63,970 nucleotides of DNA from Terriglobia bacterium (GTDB lineage Bacteria; Acidobacteriota; Terriglobia; Acidiferrales; UBA7541), in assembly GCA_020073485.1 (NCBI GenBank), contig JAIQFB010000028.1:1-63970 (forward strand), read 5' to 3'. Position 1 is the first letter of the stretch. The number at the start of each line of letters is the position of its first letter. This document shows, in pieces, positions 12,980-54,342 of this stretch. The notes under the pieces are model-generated. The model had not been told where the DNA came from and did not search any database. It worked only from the letters and a program-made list of their open reading frames with translations. The position numbers were made by a program, and so were the translations under genes.

Positions 12980-13039
12980 ATTCTTATTCAGCGGGCCGCA
13001 TGCAATCCCGCAATCCGGGCGAATATTGGCAGCGATGGC

Positions 13040-13285
13040 CTAAACTTTTTTTCTTAAAAATTCGACAATCACGTAGCCGATCAGCCCGGAAATGCAGGCG
13101 ATCACAAGGTTCGTGGCCGTGAAAATATCTTTGAAGGCAAAAGCCAAAGTCTTGGCATCAGAATTGGTCCGGGTAAATTCCCCCATCAAGAGGTTGGAAT
13201 AGAAGAGAAAGACGATGAAACCCACCTCGACCAGAGCTCTCCAGATCGGGGCCAATTTGCGGGGCGGTTTGGGATTCGACGACAT
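13040..13285 (-). CDS. Small membrane protein
   Basis: An 81-residue protein with two predicted transmembrane helices (about residues 17-35 and 55-76) and a basic C terminus (EFLRKKV). No family is recognised. It is convergent with the membrane protein gene ending at 12979. Confidence 0.6.
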   Translation of the reverse strand: MSSNPKPPRKLAPIWRALVEVGFIVFLFYSNLLMGEFTRTNSDAKTLAFAFKDIFTATNLVIACISGLIGYVIVEFLRKKV

Positions 13286-13383
13286 TCGCTAACTATAACA
13301 AGAAAATTCGAACGCGGTGTCCAATCCGGACGGAGTCTGCCCGCATGTGGATTCGAGAGGCAGAAGAACTAATCAGCGGAAAT

Positions 13384-13524
13384 TCACTCAGCCAACCGCA
13401 GCCAGGGAGACGGCCAGGATTCGGGCTGTTTCTTTCTTGCGGACTTGCGACGCTTCGCTTTCACAAGTCTTTGGCTTCTGGTGGCGGGGCGGCGTCTCAG
13501 CGAGGATGACTTCTTTGCTTTCAT
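13384..13524 (-). CDS. Possible 46-residue Lys/Arg-rich protein
   Basis: A short open frame, below the usual length cut-off, in a 400-base stretch otherwise empty of genes. It begins MKAKKSSSLRRR with GGAGG three bases before the ATG. It encodes a very basic stretch (VKAKRRKSARKK) and ends at TGA. The composition resembles small nucleic-acid-binding or ribosome-associated proteins. The unusually short ribosome-binding spacing and lack of a known family keep confidence low. The rest of 13286-13690 shows no other gene. Confidence 0.3.
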   Translation of the reverse strand: MKAKKSSSLRRRPATRSQRLVKAKRRKSARKKQPESWPSPWLRLAE

Positions 13525-13690
13525 AGGCCTCCGGAGAAGACCTTCACTTCATCGATTCACATCTGGTCAGAACGCCGCGGCCCGCGCGGAACCACCGGTT
13601 GAATTCCGCAACAAGGCCGCGGCTGAATGACCCACGCGGGTCTCGCCATGATGGCGGTCATAGCAAGACTCGGCCCCGCGTGAAACTCGA

Positions 13691-14032
13691 TTACAGAGCG
13701 ACCGCTCCGCGTTCTTGATTCCGGATCCGGATGACATCCTCCACCTTGTACAGGAAGATCTTCCCGTCGCCGATTTTGCCGGTTGCAGCGGTCGCCAGGA
13801 TCGCTTTGACGGCGGAGTCAACCAGTTCGTCGGACACAACGATTTCCAGCTTTACTTTTGGAACGAGATCGACGGTATATTCCCGGCCCTTGTAAACTTC
13901 GGTATGCCCCTTTTGCCGTCCGTGTCCGCGCACATCGCTGATGGTCATGCCGCCGATGCCCAACTCGGTCAGGACATCCTTGACCGCTTCAAACTTGGAC
14001 GGCTGAATGATCACTTCTAATTTGGTCATCAT
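13691..14032 (-). CDS. glnK: PII nitrogen regulatory protein (GlnB/GlnK)
   Basis: A 113-residue PII signal protein. It has the family blocks GMTISDVRGHGRQKGHTEVY, the T-loop tyrosine in GREYTVDLVPK, and the nucleotide-binding region TGKIGDGKIF. If translation starts at the second Met, the T-loop tyrosine is residue 51, the canonical uridylylation site; GAGGA nine bases from the first ATG makes either start possible. PII proteins bind 2-oxoglutarate, ATP and ADP, and they block Amt channels. Here the gene follows amt1 on the same strand, reversing the common glnK-amtB order. Confidence 0.93.
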   Translation of the reverse strand: MMTKLEVIIQPSKFEAVKDVLTELGIGGMTISDVRGHGRQKGHTEVYKGREYTVDLVPKVKLEIVVSDELVDSAVKAILATAATGKIGDGKIFLYKVEDVIRIRNQERGAVAL

Positions 14033-14263
14033 ATTTTCGTATCCTCATGTCTTTCGTAGCGAATTCGAATCTCAGTCTCTGCCACCGTGCCTGGAGTTCC
14101 TTTTCTTGCGCGCTCCAACTATAGCCCGCAGCCGCTGGCCCGTAAGCTGCCCTCCACCGTGCCTCCCTCTTGTACCTCGGCATTCATTCCGGGAAGATAC
14201 GCTGCAGGGAAAATAGCTTCGGGCGCCCATTCACGAAGCATCCGATCCAGGGCGCCCGGGTGT

Positions 14264-15874
14264 TCAATCGCCGTGCGCTGGTGCGGCCGCTTTGACGGGC
14301 GAGCCGACCGGTTGTTGGTGGCCAGCCAAGCCCTTGGGCGATCCCAGGGCGGTGATGACATATTCGGGGTAAGCCGAAATGCCGTGTTCGTGCAGGTCCA
14401 TCCCGTAGAGTTCGGCTTCTGCCGGCAGGCGCAGGGTTCCGGTTGCGTTGACCGCGAGCATGACGACCATCGCCACCGCAAAGGTTGCCGCCGTGATGAC
14501 AGCGCTGCCGATGATCTGGGCAATCAACACCTGCGTGCCGCCGCCGTAGAACAGGCCCTTCAGCGGTGCGCTGTTATCGGGAGCCAGCGGCCCTGTCGCG
14601 CCGAATTGCCCGGAGGCAAACAGCCCGAGAGAAATGGTGCCCCAGATTCCGCAAAAGCCGTGAACCGGGACCGCTCCGATGGGATCGTCAATTCGCAGAT
14701 ATTCCAGCAGGTCGACTCCCAAAATGACCAGGACGCCGGCGATGCCGCCAAGAATGATTGCGCCTGTCGGGGTAACCCAGTAGCAGGGGCAGGTAATTGC
14801 GACGAGGCCGGCAAGAAATCCGTTCGTCGTGTACCCCGCATCCCATTTTTTGGTCATGATGTAGCCGTAAATGATGGAGGTGAGGCCGGCCGCGCATGCA
14901 GCCAATGTGGTGTTCGTGGCTACTCGGCCGATGCCGACAAAGTCCATGGCCGAGAGCGTGCTGCCTGGGTTGAATCCGTACCACCCGAACCAGAGAATCA
15001 AGCCGCCCGAGACGGCGATGGTCAAATCATGCGGCAGCATGGGAGTGCCGCCATCGCGTTTGAAGGTGCGGCCGAGGCGTGGGCCCAGAACAATAGACCC
15101 GGCCAAGGCGATGAATCCTCCGATGGTGTGGACGACCGTGGAGCCGGCGAAGTCGTGAAAGCTCATTCCCAACCCAGGCCAAAAATGACCGTCGCTGCCC
15201 ATGTTGGCCAGCCAGCCGTCCGGTCCCCAGGCCCAGTGGCCGATGACGGGGTAAATGAAACCAGTGACGCAGATGCTGTAGAGGAGGTCGCCGACGAAGC
15301 CGGTGCGGCCGATCATCGCGCCGGAGGTGATGGTCGAGCAGGTATCGGCGAAGGCGAATTGAAAAATCCAGACGGCCAGGAACGCGACGCCCGTGGTTTC
15401 ATAAGTTGCGGGAGCGTTTTGCAGAAAGAACCAGTGGTAGCCGACGAAACCGTTGCCGTGGCTGAACATGAAGGCGAACCCGACGGCGTAGAAAAGAATC
15501 CCGCAAAGACAGGTATCCACCACGCATTCGACAAGCACGTTCACCGTCTCGCGCGACCGGCAGAAGCCCGCTTCCAGCATGGTGAACCCGACTTGCATTC
15601 CGAAGACCAGGAACGCAGCGATCAGAGTCCACGCGGTGTTTATCGGGTTGACGATGTCATTTCCCTTGAGATCGGGATCGGCCGCGTAAACATGGCTGAA
15701 GAGCAGCCCGGTCACGCAGGCCATGATCAGCAAAACAGCTCCCACGCCGATGACCTTGCCGGCAAGCATCGTCCCTCCAAACTTGCGCCATTCCGGTTTT
15801 TTAAGCCGATCGCCAAGCCTGGAAAATTTCTCCGATAACGTAAGTCGTTTTTCAAATCCACGCATGTCAGACAT
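14264..15874 (-). CDS. amt: Ammonium transporter Amt1
   Basis: A 536-residue ammonium channel of the Amt/MEP/Rh family with an N-terminal extension of about 60 residues before the first core helix. The first pore histidine lies in DFAGSTVVHTIGG and the second in VPVHGFCGIWG. The family pattern FMLEAGF-like appears as FTMLEAGFCRSRE. About eleven core transmembrane helices are predicted, and the C-terminal tail (LDLHEHG-like YGMDLHEHGISAYPEYV) is the part that usually couples to PII. AAGGAGAG precedes the ATG. The downstream PII gene and upstream ANTAR gene suggest regulation by nitrogen status. Confidence 0.95.
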   Translation of the reverse strand: MSDMRGFEKRLTLSEKFSRLGDRLKKPEWRKFGGTMLAGKVIGVGAVLLIMACVTGLLFSHVYAADPDLKGNDIVNPINTAWTLIAAFLVFGMQVGFTMLEAGFCRSRETVNVLVECVVDTCLCGILFYAVGFAFMFSHGNGFVGYHWFFLQNAPATYETTGVAFLAVWIFQFAFADTCSTITSGAMIGRTGFVGDLLYSICVTGFIYPVIGHWAWGPDGWLANMGSDGHFWPGLGMSFHDFAGSTVVHTIGGFIALAGSIVLGPRLGRTFKRDGGTPMLPHDLTIAVSGGLILWFGWYGFNPGSTLSAMDFVGIGRVATNTTLAACAAGLTSIIYGYIMTKKWDAGYTTNGFLAGLVAITCPCYWVTPTGAIILGGIAGVLVILGVDLLEYLRIDDPIGAVPVHGFCGIWGTISLGLFASGQFGATGPLAPDNSAPLKGLFYGGGTQVLIAQIIGSAVITAATFAVAMVVMLAVNATGTLRLPAEAELYGMDLHEHGISAYPEYVITALGSPKGLAGHQQPVGSPVKAAAPAHGD

Positions 15875-16036
15875 TGTTACTCTCCTTGTAATTTAGTAAG
15901 GATCTCGTTCACCAATCACCGATGCCGACGAGCCCTGCACCATTTGGAAACCGACAAGCCGGAAGATTGTCCGAGCCGCCAAAAAATCTCCCGACTGCCA
16001 ACACCATTGCGGATAAATTCAAACTGCACCGAAGAA

Positions 16037-16537
16037 TCACTTTTCTACCGCTACAGCCGAGACTTCTTCTGCCCTTAAATCCATGGCCTGGATCTGCGGC
16101 AGCATCGCCGCAAGGTTTCCGTCCTCGAGCCAGAATTGAAGGCCAAGCAATTTCGCCCGCATGGCCACGGAATGAAAATGGCGTGTGGCCAACTGCTCTC
16201 GAGCGACAGTACCGGAGATAATCAATTCGATATCCCCTTCGCTACCGGGCCGGAAGACCCGCAAAACACCGGTCTCCACGTCCGGCAGCAACCGGAATAG
16301 CAACTCCCGAATGGCGATGGCATCTTCCAGCGCCTGCATTGAAACGTGGCGCCCGCTCACGGATGGCGATAGATCCGAGTCCCAGGGGTCGGGGGGCCGC
16401 GCCATCCAGTCGCATTCGACCGTGTCGTTGTACATTTCCAAACGCAGCAGCCGCAGCGGAGCGCGCGAGAGTTCACCGAAGCGCAGCTGAATCCGCAGGC
16501 CGCGAACAAAATTTGAGATGTCCCACAGCCGCCGCAT
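16037..16537 (-). CDS. Protein of unknown function in the ammonium-transport cluster
   Basis: A 166-residue soluble protein starting at MRRLWDISNFVRGLRIQLRF. This start has AGGAG five bases upstream, whereas the longer frame from 16582 has none. It contains a Trp-rich middle part (ECDWMARPPDPWD) and an alpha/beta C-terminal half. No family is recognised. Its place between the ANTAR gene and amt1, on the same strand, suggests a role tied to ammonium transport or its control; that is inference from context only. Confidence 0.6.
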   Translation of the reverse strand: MRRLWDISNFVRGLRIQLRFGELSRAPLRLLRLEMYNDTVECDWMARPPDPWDSDLSPSVSGRHVSMQALEDAIAIRELLFRLLPDVETGVLRVFRPGSEGDIELIISGTVAREQLATRHFHSVAMRAKLLGLQFWLEDGNLAAMLPQIQAMDLRAEEVSAVAVEK

Positions 16538-16692
16538 TCCTTCTCCTATTTGCGCCGCTCTTGAAGCCATGACAGACACCAAGCCATAGACAGGGACAGA
16601 CGTCGCTGCGCATCGGGAACGAACAGACCCGGTCCAGCGCCGTTCAAGGCTTGCCTATTGGCTCGTCGTCGAGCGTTATGTAGCTATTGTTT

Positions 16693-16710
16693 GGACACGG
16701 CGTCGTGTCC
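16693..16710. other. Short hairpin in the leader upstream of the 16537 gene
   Basis: A perfect inverted repeat GGACACG-GCGT-CGTGTCC in the 345-base gap between the ANTAR gene and the unknown gene. The rest of the gap (16538-16882) shows no gene. The four-base loop does not match the six-base loop of ANTAR targets, so it is only a structural landmark. Confidence 0.35.
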
Positions 16711-16882
16711 GAGAAGAACTTAGAGTACGTCGGGGCCCGCGGTGTCGGCGCTTCACTTCGTCGTCGAAGCAAAGCATTGGAAACGACGGTGCGGTCCGTT
16801 CAATTTCCACTGCAGTCTGCAACTCATCTTGGAAACAGTCAAATTCAAACTTTAAATTGCAATCATTCGCCGCCGAATCCGG

Positions 16883-17584
16883 TTACTGCGAGCCGCGCTT
16901 CAGCTCGTCATTTAGGATGACGGACTCGGCAATCTCCTTCATGGACTTGCGCATTTGCTGGCTTTGCCGCTGCATTGTGCGGTAGGCCTCTTCTTCCGTG
17001 ATTCCCATCCCACGCTGGAGGATGCCCTTGGCGCGCTCCACCAGCTTGCGGGTTTCGAGCTGGCCGGAAAGGGCGGACTTTTCGCTTTCCAGCTTCTGCC
17101 TCTGGAGTTCATTCTGCTGAAGCTCGGTAATCTTTTTTTCCAGTTCCGCGGTGCGCTCGGCCACCCGCGCTTCCAGGTGATCGCGCGCTTCTAGCAGCGC
17201 CTCTTCGCTCTTCTTTTTCGAGGAGCTTACCCAGCTCGCTACCAGGGCGCAAACAACGAACGCCGCAAAATACGCGGTATTTGTCGCGTTGATGGCGAAG
17301 GAATGAAACGGAGGAACGAAGTAATAGTCCACGGCCAGGGTGGAAAGAAAGACCGCGAAGAGCCCGGGCCAGGTCCCGCCGAGCCACGCGCTGGTCATTA
17401 CCGCGGCGAAGAACACGAACAAAAAGGGATACGGAAACAACCGTTGAAGAAATAAGCTCGAAGCCAGGGCCGCCACGACGCACGCCGCGGCAATCCCATA
17501 GCGCTGTATCCTCGCTACCATTCGCACGCTGAACCCGCGGCTACGCTCAAGAGACGAAGGCACCGCAAAGTTTCCCAGGCTCAT
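16883..17584 (-). CDS. Membrane-anchored ANTAR-domain RNA-binding regulator (DUF4118-coiled coil-ANTAR)
   Basis: A 233-residue protein. Residues about 25-110 form a four-helix membrane domain of the DUF4118/KdpD type (YPFLFVFFAAVMTSAWLGG, then VDYYFVPPFHSF). A coiled coil follows (about 120-165, ARVAERTAELEKKITELQQN). The C-terminal 60 residues are an ANTAR domain (KLVERAKGILQRGMGITEEEAYRTM). ANTAR domains bind paired RNA hairpins and prevent transcription termination, often in nitrogen-metabolism leaders. Soluble ANTAR regulators are common; a membrane-tethered one next to ammonium channels is unusual. GGAAG six bases upstream supports the start. Confidence 0.85.
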   Translation of the reverse strand: MSLGNFAVPSSLERSRGFSVRMVARIQRYGIAAACVVAALASSLFLQRLFPYPFLFVFFAAVMTSAWLGGTWPGLFAVFLSTLAVDYYFVPPFHSFAINATNTAYFAAFVVCALVASWVSSSKKKSEEALLEARDHLEARVAERTAELEKKITELQQNELQRQKLESEKSALSGQLETRKLVERAKGILQRGMGITEEEAYRTMQRQSQQMRKSMKEIAESVILNDELKRGSQ

Positions 17585-17754
17585 AGCCGCTTCCTTTCTT
17601 TATGAATTCTTTATGTAGCTTGCAGCGGCGGCCGCGCGGGGACAACCTCAAAGAACGGATGGCTGGGATTCGAGAAGATTATTCTCTTGAGGCAAACGCA
17701 GGAACGACGCGCGCGAGGCGCTCTTTCCTGGCTGTTATTTTGAGCAATCCGAGG

Positions 17755-19095
17755 CTACCGGGGAAGGAAATCCTCGGTGTGGGTGATGATTTCCGGGTAG
17801 GCGCCGGCGCCCAGTTCGTGCAGGTCCAGGCCCTGGCGTTCGCCCTCCACCGATACCCGGTAGGGGTATATGCGGTTCAGCAGCCAGTTCAGACCGTAAG
17901 TAAGAGGTAGAACAAAGCCCAGCAAGGTCGCGACGCCAATCACCTGCGCAAGCCATTGTCCGGGGGCGCTTTCCGTCCCGATCGCGGAATGGCCCACGGC
18001 ATTCATGGCCGTGCCGGGGAACCGCGCAAACAGTCCGGCGGCAAGCAAGCCCCACAGTCCGCCGATGGCGTGGACCGAAACCGCGCCGCCCGGATCGTCC
18101 ACTTCCAATTTCAACTCCAGCCATTCGATACAGAATGTAACCACAGCCCCGGCAATCGAGCCAATCACCACGGCTTCGGCGGGAACCACGAACGCGCAGG
18201 AGGCGCTGCTGGCCACTAATCCCGCAACCCAGCCATTGGCGGTGAGAGAAGCGTCGGGCTTGCCGAAGCGAACATTCGTAATAAAAGCCGCGGTCAATGC
18301 GGCCGCCGCGCCGGCCAACACCGTATTCATCGCGATCAGCTCTGACCCGGAAGGTTCCCCGCCGGCAAATAAGATTGCGCCGGCGCAATTGAGCCCCAGC
18401 CACCCAAGCAAGGCCAGCAGGCAGCCGAACAGAATCAGGACCGCGTTGTGCCCCGGTATCGCGGGAGCCATTCCGTCCGCGGAATATTTCCCGCGCCGCG
18501 GACCAAGAATCCAGGTGATGGACAATGCGGTGAGCCCGCCCAAAACGTGAATTGTGCCGGCTCCGCCGACGTCGAGGAATCCGCGTCCCAGGCCGTAATT
18601 CGCGCCCAGTTGCGCCAGCCAGCCGCCTCCCCAAACCCAGTGCGCGAACAGTGGGTAGGTCCAGCCGGCCAGAAGGGCCGTCGAAATTCCGCTGGCGCGA
18701 AGCCGCCAGCGGTCCGCGCCGCTCCCCAGTGGAATCATGGCTGCCAGCCCCACACAGAATACTTGCAGCAGAGCGGACAAGTATGCTGGGGAACCGTCCG
18801 ACGCCAGCTTGCGGAAAAAGAATGGCTCCGCGGCAATCCAATTCCATTGCTTGCCCGACAGAGTCAAGGCGTGAAACGTGCCTCCGCTGAATCCTTCCCA
18901 TCCGAATCCAAACGCAAAATAAACCAGCCCGGCAACCGAGAGCGCGGAAAGCGATGCCATCATGATATGCGCGGCACTGTGCGAGCGGCCCAATCCGGTA
19001 TTAATCAGGGCCAATCCGGCCGCGGCCAGGGGCGTGAGAAAGATAAAGAAGAGACAGGCGACGGTGGCCAGATCGGTTAGTGCGGGCGTGTTCAT
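17755..19095 (-). CDS. Ammonium transporter Amt2 (divergent)
   Basis: A 446-residue Amt/MEP/Rh-family channel with eleven predicted membrane helices. The first pore histidine is in GGAGTIHVLGGLTALS and the second in VSVHAIGGLWGLLA. It retains the C-terminal GLDLHELGAGAYPEI segment seen in PII-responsive Amt proteins. It is clearly divergent from Amt1: shorter, without the N-terminal extension, and lacking the FTMLEAGF signature near helix 1 (it reads LALINTGLGRS). It may differ in affinity or act as a sensor. It follows a small membrane-protein gene by five bases, so the two are likely cotranscribed. Confidence 0.9.
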   Translation of the reverse strand: MNTPALTDLATVACLFFIFLTPLAAAGLALINTGLGRSHSAAHIMMASLSALSVAGLVYFAFGFGWEGFSGGTFHALTLSGKQWNWIAAEPFFFRKLASDGSPAYLSALLQVFCVGLAAMIPLGSGADRWRLRASGISTALLAGWTYPLFAHWVWGGGWLAQLGANYGLGRGFLDVGGAGTIHVLGGLTALSITWILGPRRGKYSADGMAPAIPGHNAVLILFGCLLALLGWLGLNCAGAILFAGGEPSGSELIAMNTVLAGAAAALTAAFITNVRFGKPDASLTANGWVAGLVASSASCAFVVPAEAVVIGSIAGAVVTFCIEWLELKLEVDDPGGAVSVHAIGGLWGLLAAGLFARFPGTAMNAVGHSAIGTESAPGQWLAQVIGVATLLGFVLPLTYGLNWLLNRIYPYRVSVEGERQGLDLHELGAGAYPEIITHTEDFLPR

Positions 19096-19100
19096 GAGAG

Positions 19101-19280
19101 CTACCTTTTTTCCTCTCGCGGAATCAAATGGGATCGAAAGACAAGGATCAATCCCAAGGCTTCCACGGCCACACCGGCAAAAACAAACGCGCCGCGCGCG
19201 CCCGCGGATCCCAGCAACACCACCGCGGCGAGCACGAGAAGCCAGCCGGAAACCATAAGCAGGAAACCCACAAACCTCAT
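19101..19280 (-). CDS. Small membrane protein cotranscribed with amt2
   Basis: A 59-residue protein with two transmembrane helices (residues about 4-22 and 29-48) and a charged C-terminal end (SHLIPREEKR). Its stop lies five bases before the amt2 start on the same strand, a spacing typical of translational coupling. The start at 19280 is chosen over the TTG two codons upstream. No family is recognised. A role as an accessory subunit of Amt2 is inference from position. Confidence 0.55.
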   Translation of the reverse strand: MRFVGFLLMVSGWLLVLAAVVLLGSAGARGAFVFAGVAVEALGLILVFRSHLIPREEKR

Positions 19281-19286
19281 TCGCAA

Positions 19287-19835
19287 CGCCCCTGTCCCAG
19301 GAAAGTGAATGCGCTCTGGAATTCTCGACGCTCGTTAAAATATCACAATCGTGCCCGGTTCAATGGCACCGATGTGCGCAAATCTCCGCAAACCAAACCG
19401 CTGAATCAATCCCGAATATCGAGCGAATTGAAAATAGCGTCTCATTCGCCGCCGCGGCAGGCGCGCGAGTTTCGTATGCATCCGATAAGAGATCTGAATG
19501 GATCCGGCGGGCCCAATCCAAGGATTTTGCTTTGCGGAAAAATGCCGGTCCTGCGCGCAGGGGTGTCCATCGGCGCGTAACTGTATTTTTACAAAGAACT
19601 TACCAATTATTGACGCATGCGGGCCCGACCAAGGGACAGCAAGTTTCCAAAATCCGGGGCCGGCAAGACTGTCCTGTTGCAGCGCATTGCAGGGCATCGG
19701 AATCGGTGATTTGGGTCATCGAAACGTTGCATTTTACTACTCTCCCGCACCCTTCTAGTATCACGGGCCTCGGCATAGTTCGGCTCCGTACGGCGGGTTT
19801 GTGAACGGAAGTAAAGAATAAATAAAGGAGATTTC
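19287..19835. other. 549-base intergenic region without a recognisable gene
   Basis: This lies between the divergently transcribed amt2 operon and the APC permease gene and should contain both promoters. No open frame with a ribosome binding site or family similarity was found. No sigma-54 promoter (GG-N10-GC) could be placed with confidence on either strand. Confidence 0.4.
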
Positions 19836-21632
19836 ATGGCGGAAAACACCGGCGAAGTAAAAATGACACCAACCTTAGGATTGACCGGGTTGACGATGAA
19901 CGCTATGGCGCTCATCGCTCCAGGCGCTTTCCTTTGGCTCACGTTTTATATTCAAGCGACGACCGGCGCGACGGGCCCGGCGATGTGGCTGGGCATCGTG
20001 GTCGCCTTGCTGCTCTGTCTGGCCACGGCGGTTTGTTACGCCGAACTGGCGAAGTTGTATCCGGGGACCGGCAGTTCTTACTATTTTGCCGAGCAGTCGT
20101 TCCTGAATCACGAAAAAGCCTGGAGGTACGCCCGGCTCTCGAAATTCATTGTCGGCTGGGGCTCGCACCTTTATTACTGGATTTACCCCGGAGTGATGGT
20201 CGGTGTCACGGGCATTTTCGTCGGATACGTGGTCGGCACGCTTTGGCCCAACACCATGAGTTCCTCGAACCCCGGCCCGGTGTTCATGGGCTTGGTGGCC
20301 GTGGTGTTTTCCTTCGGCGTGGCTTACATCGCGCACCGCGGGGTCAACGGCTCGACCGGCGTAAGCATCGCGATCAACGTCATTCAGATCTCCGCGCTGC
20401 TGGTGTTCTCGATCATGGCGCTGGGCTACCGGATGAACCATCCGCCCGGAAGCGTCGCTTTCCAATTCGATTCGGCCAGCGGCGAAGCGTATTCGTATGA
20501 ATTTGCCACAACCAGCCAGATGGTGAACGGAACGGCAACCGATGTAATCACCCGCGATGCCAACATGGTTCCGCAGCCCAAGCTCGACGCGAGCGGCAAG
20601 CCGGTTCCGTACCACATCGATTATCCGTATTACGATTCCAACGGTGGCTTTTTGACTCACCCCGACGCAAAATCCGTCATTGCCCCGCACAAATGGGGAT
20701 GGGTTTTCGTGCAGGCCACGGTCGCCATTTTGATCCTGGTCGGATTTGAATCGGTGACAGCCATGGGCGGTGAAGCGAAGAACGCGAAACGCGACATCCC
20801 CATCGCGGTCATCCTGTCGCTGCTCATTCAGGGGGCGTTCTGCTATCTGATTGAGTATTTCTGCGCCAGTTACTTCTTAAATAGCGGGTACACAATGCAA
20901 AGCGCGTCAGGCTCGGCGGCGCCAATCGGCGACATGATGATCATGGTCGGCGACGCCGTATTCGGCCAGGGACATGGGCGAGCTTTCATGCTGGCTGAGG
21001 CAGTAACAGTATTCCTCGCCTTGATCGGCACGACTCTGTCCTGCATCAACACCGGCGCGCGCGTCACCTATGCCATGGGCAAGGACAACGAGGTGCCGGA
21101 ACACTTCGGCATGCTGCATGCCAAGAACCTCAGCCCGCACCGAGCCATCTGGACGCTGGCCATCATTTCAGCGGTCATCGGATGCATCGGCGTAACCATG
21201 GCCTTCGGCGACGCCGGAGCTCCGCAGGATGCCACCATCCAGGCTTTGCCCCACAACATCTTCTCGAGTTTTGGGTACACCACTCACGACAAGATGGCGG
21301 CATTGCCTAACTCCTTGCTCACCGTAACCCTGGCCTCCAACTTCGGCACGTTCCTTCTCTATGGCCTGAGTTGCATCATCTGCCTGGTGGCCTACCACAA
21401 TCACCCCAACTTCAAAGTCGTGCGCCATCTCCTGATTCCCGTATTCGGATTAGTCGCGAATTTAGGATGCATGGCGTTTTACTTAATCGGGCCGTTCATG
21501 GGATATGGAACGGCCAAAGAACCACTGCTCGCCTTGGGCATCGCTCTGGTTTGGGCCATCTACGGCGGGATTTACTTCCTTCGCGCCAGCAAGGCTACAG
21601 GCCGCTCCACGCTGGTCGCCAGCCGCAGCTAA
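19836..21632 (+). CDS. APC-superfamily amino acid permease
   Basis: A 598-residue transporter with about twelve membrane helices. The first helix carries the unwound-helix pattern of the APC family (LTMNAMALIAPGAFLW), and the GTGSSYYFAEQ segment follows helix 2. Helix 6 and its neighbours include VGFESVTAMGGEAKNAKRDIP, a hallmark of amino acid permeases. An extracytoplasmic insert of about 70 residues (base 20460-20690), predicted between membrane segments, is longer than usual. AGGAGA precedes the ATG. The substrate cannot be told from sequence; the nearby nitrogen genes favour an amino acid or amine. Confidence 0.87.
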   Translation: MAENTGEVKMTPTLGLTGLTMNAMALIAPGAFLWLTFYIQATTGATGPAMWLGIVVALLLCLATAVCYAELAKLYPGTGSSYYFAEQSFLNHEKAWRYARLSKFIVGWGSHLYYWIYPGVMVGVTGIFVGYVVGTLWPNTMSSSNPGPVFMGLVAVVFSFGVAYIAHRGVNGSTGVSIAINVIQISALLVFSIMALGYRMNHPPGSVAFQFDSASGEAYSYEFATTSQMVNGTATDVITRDANMVPQPKLDASGKPVPYHIDYPYYDSNGGFLTHPDAKSVIAPHKWGWVFVQATVAILILVGFESVTAMGGEAKNAKRDIPIAVILSLLIQGAFCYLIEYFCASYFLNSGYTMQSASGSAAPIGDMMIMVGDAVFGQGHGRAFMLAEAVTVFLALIGTTLSCINTGARVTYAMGKDNEVPEHFGMLHAKNLSPHRAIWTLAIISAVIGCIGVTMAFGDAGAPQDATIQALPHNIFSSFGYTTHDKMAALPNSLLTVTLASNFGTFLLYGLSCIICLVAYHNHPNFKVVRHLLIPVFGLVANLGCMAFYLIGPFMGYGTAKEPLLALGIALVWAIYGGIYFLRASKATGRSTLVASRS

Positions 21633-50785: not shown

Positions 50786-50867
50786 GTGGAGCCTCCTCTC
50801 CCGACTCGCGCGGGAGGCAAAGGTTGTCCGCGTGTCCGGGATCGTTTCCGGCTTTCGCGGTTGCAGG

Positions 50868-51008
50868 CTCCGTCGGTCTCCTGGCTCGGCGGCAATGCGC
50901 CGCGCGGCCTTCCCGCCCCGAGCGATCGGGACAGTGGCACACGCGGAATTTCTTCCGCCTTACAGTCGCGCGGCGGCGACGGGTTTGCACCGTCTTCCCG
51001 GCACGGAG
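50868..51008 (-). promoter_or_regulatory. Cobalamin riboswitch controlling btuB
   Basis: On the minus strand the order is a six-base closing stem (CTCCGT with ACGGAG), CGGGAAGACGGTGCAAACC, the B12 box GCCACTG (complement of 50932-50938), GGGAAGGC, and GAGCCAGGAGACC (complement of 50875-50887). Downstream, GCCTCC (complement of 50813-50818) can pair with the ribosome binding site GGAGGC (complement of 50791-50796), six bases before the btuB ATG. A competing stem CTCCCG/CGGGAG uses part of the same bases. This points to translational control. Confidence 0.93.
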
Positions 51009-51119
51009 TCTGCGGTGATGGTGGCGGATCAGCGGCGTTTCCGTTTGGCGGAGACGCAGCGGTTCCGGGTGAACGAACTCACGGTGCGCCCGTGTAAGCG
51101 CGCCGCATAACAAATAGTT

Positions 51120-54103: not shown

Positions 54104-54240
54104 CATAGCCGCACCCTTTCTCGCGAAGAGTGCCGGCAGCGACGGTTTGGGAGGGTATCCTGACTTACGGCGTTTCGCCGATCACAGTGGCGGGACCGTG
54201 GCCGATTCTAACGGCCTTCCCCACTTCCCAGACCTTCAAG
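54104..54240 (-). promoter_or_regulatory. Cobalamin riboswitch controlling btuFCD
   Basis: On the minus strand the conserved order is present: GGGAAGTGGGGAAGGCCG, GAATCGGCCACGG, the B12 box CCGCCACTG (complement of 54185-54193) and GTCAGGATACC (complement of 54154-54164). An intrinsic terminator follows directly. With cobalamin bound, the terminator should form and switch the importer off. The outer ends of the aptamer are approximate. Confidence 0.93.
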
Positions 54241-54342
54241 ATTGTCGAACGGCAGTCTAAGTCGCGCGGCTCGCGGTGTCAACACGGGGTGCGCGCGAGT
54301 GGCAGGCTTGCCACAACTCTGAATTTTGGGACATTCGCGCCG

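Follow-up and report, generated by a model that had tools for sequence, protein, structure and literature searches.

The closest described counterparts of the system considered here are EutV, NasR and AmiR, in which an RNA-binding ANTAR domain is associated with tandem hairpins bearing C:G-closed six-base loops with G at the fourth base (G4), and with nitrogen genes downstream. The loops of the EutV and NasR RNAs carry A at the first base (A1) together with G4, and selection with NasR also yielded a C:G closing pair (PMC3369931, PMC7496416, PMC8164766, PMC8934654). In the EutV structure G4 stacks on Tyr164, the sole base-specific contact, and A1 is not specifically contacted (PMC8934654). ANTAR-target RNAs before genes for PII and ammonium transporters have already been predicted in other bacteria (Ramesh 2012, PMC3369931), and the general kind of system is therefore already known. 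Here we describe a locus of this kind from a Terriglobia bacterium of the Acidobacteriota, lying in a stretch of 63,970 nucleotides (hereafter the window; GenBank JAIQFB010000028.1, contig C34 of a 5.05-Mb draft genome, assembly GCA_020073485.1). The family assignments of its genes support its reading as a locus for nitrogen uptake that includes an ANTAR regulator, and we regard its central module as probably an ANTAR-controlled ammonium-uptake operon. The features of this module are, in the direction of the genes:

16883..17584, minus strand: DUF4118-ANTAR fusion of 233 amino acids, with a KdpD-type membrane domain, a putative coiled coil and an RNA-binding ANTAR domain
16814..16842, minus strand: promoter-like element TTGACT-N17-CAGACT with AAAGTTTGAAT before it, kept in an alignment of 12 leaders and re-found by pattern (putative function)
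16652..16776, minus strand: leader RNA motif, matched at 96 bits by our covariance model R1
16749..16776, minus strand: hairpin P1, loop GACGAC
16693..16710, minus strand: hairpin P2, GGACAC-GACGCC-GTGTCC
16661..16674, minus strand: hairpin P3, GCTC-GACGAC-GAGC
16037..16537, minus strand: unk181, an unknown, soluble-looking protein of an Amt-linked family; open reading frame (ORF) from 16582, likely start ATG 16537
14264..15874, minus strand: Amt1 ammonium channel, 536 amino acids (PF00909 373 bits, TIGR00836 above cut-off)
13691..14032, minus strand: PII signaling protein, 113 amino acids (PF00543 108 bits)

Two further minus-strand genes, for a small membrane protein and a second channel, Amt2, lie upstream; an earlier note on this DNA had described six genes on one strand in this order, and the ORFs bear it out, with intergenic gaps of 5, 170, 300 (345 to the likely unk181 ATG), 162 and 231 bases in gene order.

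The locus shares with EutV, NasR and AmiR the ANTAR domain, the tandem C:G-closed hexaloop hairpins with G4, and the nitrogen genes downstream. It differs from them in a leader that rarely has A1, contains three hairpins, mostly has a longer P1-P2 spacing, and has no demonstrated overlapping terminator; in the protein, a membrane domain replaces the receiver or NIT domain, and Gln occupies the place of EutV Met172. A likeness is also seen in relatives (loci and genomes of relatives are designated by L and G numbers), where a relay of a DUF4118 histidine kinase, a FixJ-like regulator and a GAF-ANTAR protein (L085, L088, L098) is accompanied by the same leader, downstream Amt genes, and homologous membrane and ANTAR domains; this relay has a separate kinase and regulator and a presumed phosphate step, whereas the window has one fused protein. 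DUF4118 (PF13493) is common to the window protein and the membrane domain of KdpD, but the former lacks the kinase core. The succession of Amt1 and PII is like that of AmtB-GlnK, from which the locus differs in the unk181 gene and the ANTAR leader upstream. By our literature search, what is new comprises the lineage, the loop class, the triple array, the membrane fusion replacing a relay, and the unk181 family: no description of this system was found in literature titles and abstract openings, a scope outside which lie the supplementary tables of PMC3369931, which may hold Acidobacteria hits. The system would extend ANTAR control of RNA to the Acidobacteriota, a common soil phylum, and link it to ammonium uptake. 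It would also offer a set of natural forms that runs from a phosphorelay to an RNA regulator made of one membrane-bound protein, all on the same leader, in which the coupling of sensor to ANTAR domain could be tested by comparison. Finally, it puts the A1 rule in question, as a strict A1-based search would miss this class.

The leader RNA and its three hairpins

If the promoter-like element starts the transcript, the leader is about 270 bases long, and in the window 123 bases separate the end of P3 from the likely unk181 start. The consensus of this element, common to 12 aligned leaders, is AAAGTTTGAATTTGACT-N17-CANACT, with P1, P2 and P3 downstream of it. Sigma-54 sites were rejected, their matches (at most 2 mismatches) numbering 22 in the window against 33 expected by chance. 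A sigma-70 scan of positions 13000-20000 returned one site, on the plus strand, with 2.5 expected.

Two sets of leaders were compared. The gene-order set comprises the ANTAR-unk181 gaps of 12 loci with an ANTAR match at most 1,600 bases upstream, cropped on the promoter-like element (for L088, where the automatic anchor landed inside the ANTAR gene region, cropping used the last TTTGACT instead). The alignment A2 contains 23 leaders: these 12, L057 and L061 found by the promoter pattern, and 9 found by a hairpin scan requiring G4. Two leaders of L089 (5724-5810 and 8484-8573; R1 scores 55.8 and 44.1 bits) were excluded because P1 in both departs from the usual hexaloop and lacks a C:G-closed six-base loop. 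As 9 of the 11 extra leaders came from the G4-requiring scan, we take these nine rows as evidence on stems and spacing but not on loops, and count the 12 gene-order leaders apart.

Among the C:G-closed six-base loops of these 12, G occupies base 4 in 12 of 12 P1 loops, 11 of 11 P2 loops (that of L066 has seven bases) and 6 of 8 P3 loops; base 5 of the P2 loop is also constant in the 12, though not in the 23, and the other loop positions vary. Over all 23 leaders such loops occur at P1 in 23, at P2 in 22 and at P3 in 18, with G at base 4 in 23/23, 22/22 and 16/18, respectively, and variation at every other position. The linkers between P2 and P3, where P3 was found, span 10-19 bases, the canonical range being about 2-25. 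Within the stems, 88.8% of the alignment cells are paired, compared to 81.2% in shuffled alignments and 36-47% in slid structures, and 40 cells are altered on both sides, a value that none of 500 shuffles reached (their mean being 13.1); counts of this sort are inflated by relatedness among the rows. RNAalifold, run unprompted, recovered P1 and P2 and did not recover P3.

Inverted repeats that adjoin a conserved promoter-like element might also be palindromic operators in the DNA, to which a dimeric protein would bind, for instance the FixJ-type response regulator encoded in relatives. We consider this improbable: each of the three hairpins has a stem sequence of its own and the stems covary, while the closing C:G pair and the asymmetric loop G are shared; all 23 leaders have a single orientation relative to the downstream gene; and the hairpins lie downstream of the promoter-like element. 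Moreover, the window genome has no close homologue of the FixJ-like regulator, yet keeps three hairpins.

The earlier note had expected conserved pairs of hairpins with six-base A..G loops in the leaders of the island. Such hairpins are indeed present, but in one leader: the ANTAR-unk181 gap alone carries them (one full R1 match in the window, with its 17.5-bit antisense echo), and the hairpin scan found no pairs in any other gap of the island. As to the loop itself, P1 and P2 always have the G, whereas the expected A is nearly absent. Rfam 15 has no family for the leader or the rest of the island: a scan of the window at gathering scores, together with a permissive scan of 16530-16890, gave a single match there, of 9.8 bits (E 4.9), where the gathering score is 42. 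The predicted three-hairpin leader matches the ANTAR-target signature except for the near-absent A at loop base 1, and for this reason we describe it as a variant working like the dual-hexaloop family rather than file it as a canonical member.

The distribution of the leader parallels that of the regulator. A scan with the unk181 alignment of one genome per species (84,980 species) yielded 24 loci; over 33 sources, R1 detected the leader in 16 of these loci with a score of at least 44 bits, 15 of the 24 stretches showed the ANTAR system, and the presence of the two agreed in 23 (L090 shows only DUF4118 and GAF parts before its contig end, and some ANTAR-less stretches are short, such as L100 with 4.4 kb upstream). 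At E 0.01, R1 had matches in 13 of 101 genomes of relatives, 12 of them reaching at least 37 bits, and every one of these 12 belongs to the 13 genomes scoring at least 149.9 bits with the DUF4118-ANTAR protein, the next genome scoring 86.7; both cut-offs were set after the gap was seen, and most of these leaders had also been used to build R1. In the thirteenth genome, G037, the ANTAR gene is cut by the contig end and the R1 match (24.3 bits) is doubtful; the doubtful matches, G037:C107 and G084:C207, overlap opposite-strand ORFs. An even sample of the class, which shares genomes with the 101-genome set, had R1 matches in 14 of 399 genomes at E 0.001. Among the genomes compared, a strong match to the predicted leader is confined to those with this ANTAR system.

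Several matches lie in other contexts. In G658 an R1 match of 66 bits (L154:9612-9732) lies behind an ANTAR gene, with P1 and P2 apparently intact and P3 not, in a 19-kb stretch that lacks any Amt or unk181 match. In the genus g7 several leaders are located between a DUF4118-ANTAR gene and a gene for about 300 amino acids, after which, where the contig allows, comes a large membrane gene; in L056 this gene is an amino-acid permease by Pfam. In G004 a match of 37 bits (L132:1595-1718) lies 153 bases upstream of an ORF that reads as a TonB-dependent outer-membrane protein. The window genome has a weak second match, a candidate second target (G000:C31:79028-79116, equivalent to L135:7029-7117; 24.4 bits, E 0.005), about 60 bases before an ORF for a TonB protein; it overlaps an opposite-strand ORF of 82 amino acids and scores no better than the doubtful matches.

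The DUF4118-ANTAR fusion and its proposed action on the leader

Both domains of the fusion protein score above their curated cut-offs (PF13493 69 bits; PF03861 65.7 bits, cut-off 27.3). A hydropathy scan revealed three strong membrane stretches; KdpD has four. Among structure chains, the protein matches KdpD 2ksf (weakly, E=0.017) and the ANTAR chains 1s8n, 6wsh and 4akk. Its N-terminal part aligns with the kinases of relatives up to the coiled coil, the membrane part being 52-71% matched to same-cassette kinases, and its C-terminus aligns with GAF-ANTAR proteins. In the window, a predicted kinase-type membrane domain is joined directly to an ANTAR domain.

Other arrangements are found in relatives: 1) a chain of DUF4118 kinase, FixJ-like regulator and GAF-ANTAR protein in L066 (by Pfam); 2) a kinase with a protein reading as receiver-GAF-ANTAR in L067 (by alignment); and 3) a DUF4118-GAF-ANTAR protein in L056 (by Pfam), the latter two being possible intermediate forms. 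Elsewhere in the window's genome, DUF4118 matches show 26-27% identity and the response-regulator match with the highest score shows 33%, in a comparison that covered DUF4118 and the response regulator, the kinase core not being searched by itself. On the DUF4118 tree the fusions need 2 changes, and a single origin is neither rejected (p-AU 0.086) nor shown; the kinase rows are basal in this tree, but three of them had been chosen as the outgroup.

We infer that the membrane domain senses a signal and would change the ANTAR dimer via the coiled coil, with no phosphate relay. The ANTAR domain would then bind the leader loops one after another through G4, and loop binding would alter read-through or translation of the message, raising Amt1 and PII when nitrogen is short. 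When ammonium is plentiful, PII would block the channel, an action that is established for AmtB-GlnK. Tyr201 of the window ANTAR domain aligns with EutV Tyr164 in a putative residue mapping (role of Tyr164: PMC8934654); as the leader keeps the C:G pair and G4, and the domain the Tyr on which G4 stacks, the ANTAR domain is predicted to bind the loops with a relaxed need for A1. A broader proposal, which we put forward tentatively and at slightly less than an even chance, is that of a lineage-specific ANTAR switch with triple loops read by G4 without A1, in which a membrane-embedded antiterminator derived from a collapsed relay of kinase, response regulator and ANTAR protein would exert phosphorylation-free regulation on nascent leader RNA at the membrane.

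Several observations count against ANTAR control through this leader. A occupies loop base 1 in only 1 of 23 P1, 2 of 22 P2 and 2 of 18 P3 loops, and in the EutV system an altered A1 reduces induction (PMC3369931). P3 is not C:G-closed in 5 of the 23 leaders, and 2 of the other 18 lack G4. The P1-P2 spacing of 33-42 bases in most leaders is above the known linker lengths; it is shorter in some, with 7-10 bases in L081 (by eye), L088 and L098, and 25 in L082. In the same putative mapping, EutV Arg168, Met172, Asn173 and Arg177 (roles: PMC8934654) are replaced by Gln, Gln, Gln and Ser. The plug residue Met172 is essential for RNA binding in EutV, though it is not shown to be a defining feature of the family (PMC8934654); its place is taken by Gln209 in the window and by either Gln or Arg in the 38 ANTAR rows listed from Acidobacteriota. 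Two loci carry the leader without an adjoining ANTAR gene: L082, the exception among the 24 unk181 loci, in whose assembly another locus, L084, does have the ANTAR gene; and G040:C98, a hit outside the R1 seed, in which the leader directly precedes unk181, TM145 and Amt3 with no ANTAR in a 13.5-kb stretch. Terminator-like sites occur in 19 of 25 leaders compared to 53 of 125 mononucleotide shuffles, with no clear overlap with the hairpins. Lastly, a downstream helix competing with the P3 arm found no support as a general rule, the combined z being -0.13 over 18 leaders.

The terminator/antiterminator switching that the earlier note had envisaged was not demonstrated by these tests of terminators and P3 competition, which proved weak or negative. 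The leader might instead bind the ANTAR protein and act through translation, RNA stability or access of Rho instead of an intrinsic terminator, a branch of ANTAR control that does not compete with the main reading and to which we give a somewhat less than even prospect. It is favored by the window leader, in which no intrinsic terminator was found behind the hairpins, by the lack of general competition with P3, and by the naming of translation as one level of ANTAR-RNA control (PMC8164766). The excess of terminator-like hairpins over the shuffles speaks against it, as do the 123 bases between P3 and the likely unk181 start in the window and a consensus fold of the window, L083 and L093 (3 sequences, from the window's genus) that pairs the P3 arm with a distant stretch; of the three, L083 alone stands out from shuffles (z -3.79, compared to -1.01 for the window and -0.68 for L093).

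The conserved module, the unk181 family and the neighboring Amt2

Searches with the window proteins (tblastn) showed that the order ANTAR, gap or leader, unk181 and Amt recurs in relatives. As judged from these comparisons, the conserved unit is an ANTAR regulator, a predicted promoter with a structured leader RNA, unk181 and an Amt channel, often with PII. Conservation of gene order in relatives, the check that the earlier note had proposed, holds for the ANTAR-leader-Amt part of the island but not for its Amt2 part. Amt1 followed by PII on one strand, as in the window, is also observed in L081, L082, L083, L084, L086, L087, L089, L103 and others.

Labels of Acidobacteriota or its subgroups are attached to 23 of the 24 unk181 loci; the remaining one, L099, is from a metagenome-assembled genome (MAG) labeled Deltaproteobacteria. 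The family is rare, being present in 1 of 396 genomes of an even sample of the phylum, that of the window itself. Downstream, two forms occur, unk181-Amt1-PII and unk181-TM145-Amt3. L061 has the leader upstream of Amt1, and no unk181 was found in between; in L089 a single kinase-regulator-ANTAR set is followed by a leader, Amt1, PII, a second leader, unk181, TM145 and Amt3. Four loci (L091, L094, L097, L102; the records of L097 and L102 bear no MAG label) have Amt1 and PII upstream of unk181 and no ANTAR match found, with response-regulator matches nearby and a kinase too in 3 of the 4. TM145 (L056:4982-5416) is a membrane-type protein of 145 amino acids that lies between unk181 and Amt3 in nine loci and has no Pfam or PHROGs match; in L104, TM145 and Amt3 are upstream of unk181. 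A small membrane-type ORF of about 110 amino acids is located between the hairpins and unk181 in L093 (from about 8691), and similar stretches can be seen by eye in L088, L095 and L098.

The unk181 protein itself had no match in Pfam, NCBIfam or PHROGs, and against sequence profiles of the PDB the best E was 0.23. Its AlphaFold2 model is confident (pLDDT 86.1). Candidate structural relatives were rejected, the best Foldseek E being 0.026 and the VIA-align Z at most 7.7, with 2.8 A over 96-99 residues, which is the level of a common arrangement; many of the VIA-align rows are cytosolic domains of cation diffusion facilitators.

The features beyond this unit, and the extent of the cassette that contains it, are:

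19101..19286, minus strand: small membrane protein, 61 amino acids; no family above curated cut-off; paired with Amt2 in relatives (beside it in L150-L153)
17755..19095, minus strand: Amt2, 446 amino acids, divergent ammonium-channel family protein (PF00909 255 bits); neighbor outside the core module
13304..17754, minus strand: cassette of ANTAR gene, promoter and leader, unk181, Amt1 and PII; absent from the orthologous G001 locus (blastn)

The divergence of Amt2 is seen in its score of 256 bits with the NCBIfam amt model, the cut-off of which is 343. Where the aligned chain 8qj3 reads Phe-Asn-Gly-Gly-Ser, Amt2 has Leu-Asn-Cys-Ala-Gly, a change by which, we presume, the pore may be altered.

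The earlier note had coupled the two channels, suggesting that flux through one could be sensed and direct expression of the other; we take this as Amt2 flux that the membrane ANTAR protein relays to Amt1 expression, so that both would form one circuit. In favor of this reading are the alignment of the small membrane protein, Amt2 and ANTAR genes in one row in three genomes, and the divergent nature of Amt2. The three, namely the window genome (G000), G002 and G005, are all of one genus, and the second channel in G005 belongs to the Amt3 type and has no PII with it. Of 61 genomes searched, 22 have Amt-family matches to Amt2 at E 1e-60; an orthologue with at least 63% identity is present in 14 of the 61, beside the ANTAR gene in those 3, at the end of a contig in 1 (G004, likewise of this genus), and apart from it in 10. 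In these ten (G001, G008, G011, G020, G023, G030, G032, G069, G077, G084), the Amt2 contig has no ANTAR among the matches listed, and five of them (G001, G020, G030, G069, G077) have no 149.9-bit match to the ANTAR system.

At the locus of G001, from the same genus, the small membrane protein and Amt2 are directly followed by the gene that lies beyond PII in the window, and in a blastn comparison of the window with this locus (L150) homology extends as far as the stop codon of Amt2 (17755) and begins again at 13303. Hence a 4.45-kb cassette was either inserted in the window or lost in G001; as L151, from another family, has an APC gene, the small membrane protein and Amt2, with no cassette in its 1.5 kb downstream, insertion is favored. 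The leader-ANTAR-Amt module is conserved without an adjoining Amt2, and the two channels of L089, each behind its own leader, fit parallel control by one ANTAR protein rather than flux sensing. Sensing of Amt2 flux for the expression of Amt1 thus appears very unlikely, and Amt2 is, by its distribution, a separate gene that is incidental to the ANTAR-controlled module.

A divergent amino-acid permease (window 19836-21632, plus strand) lies beyond this gene pair. It adjoins the small membrane protein and Amt2 in G001, G002, G005 and G077, and in G004 (L082) the same permease precedes the leader. Elsewhere, the window contains two cobalamin riboswitches on the minus strand, at 50854-51023 and 54133-54246.

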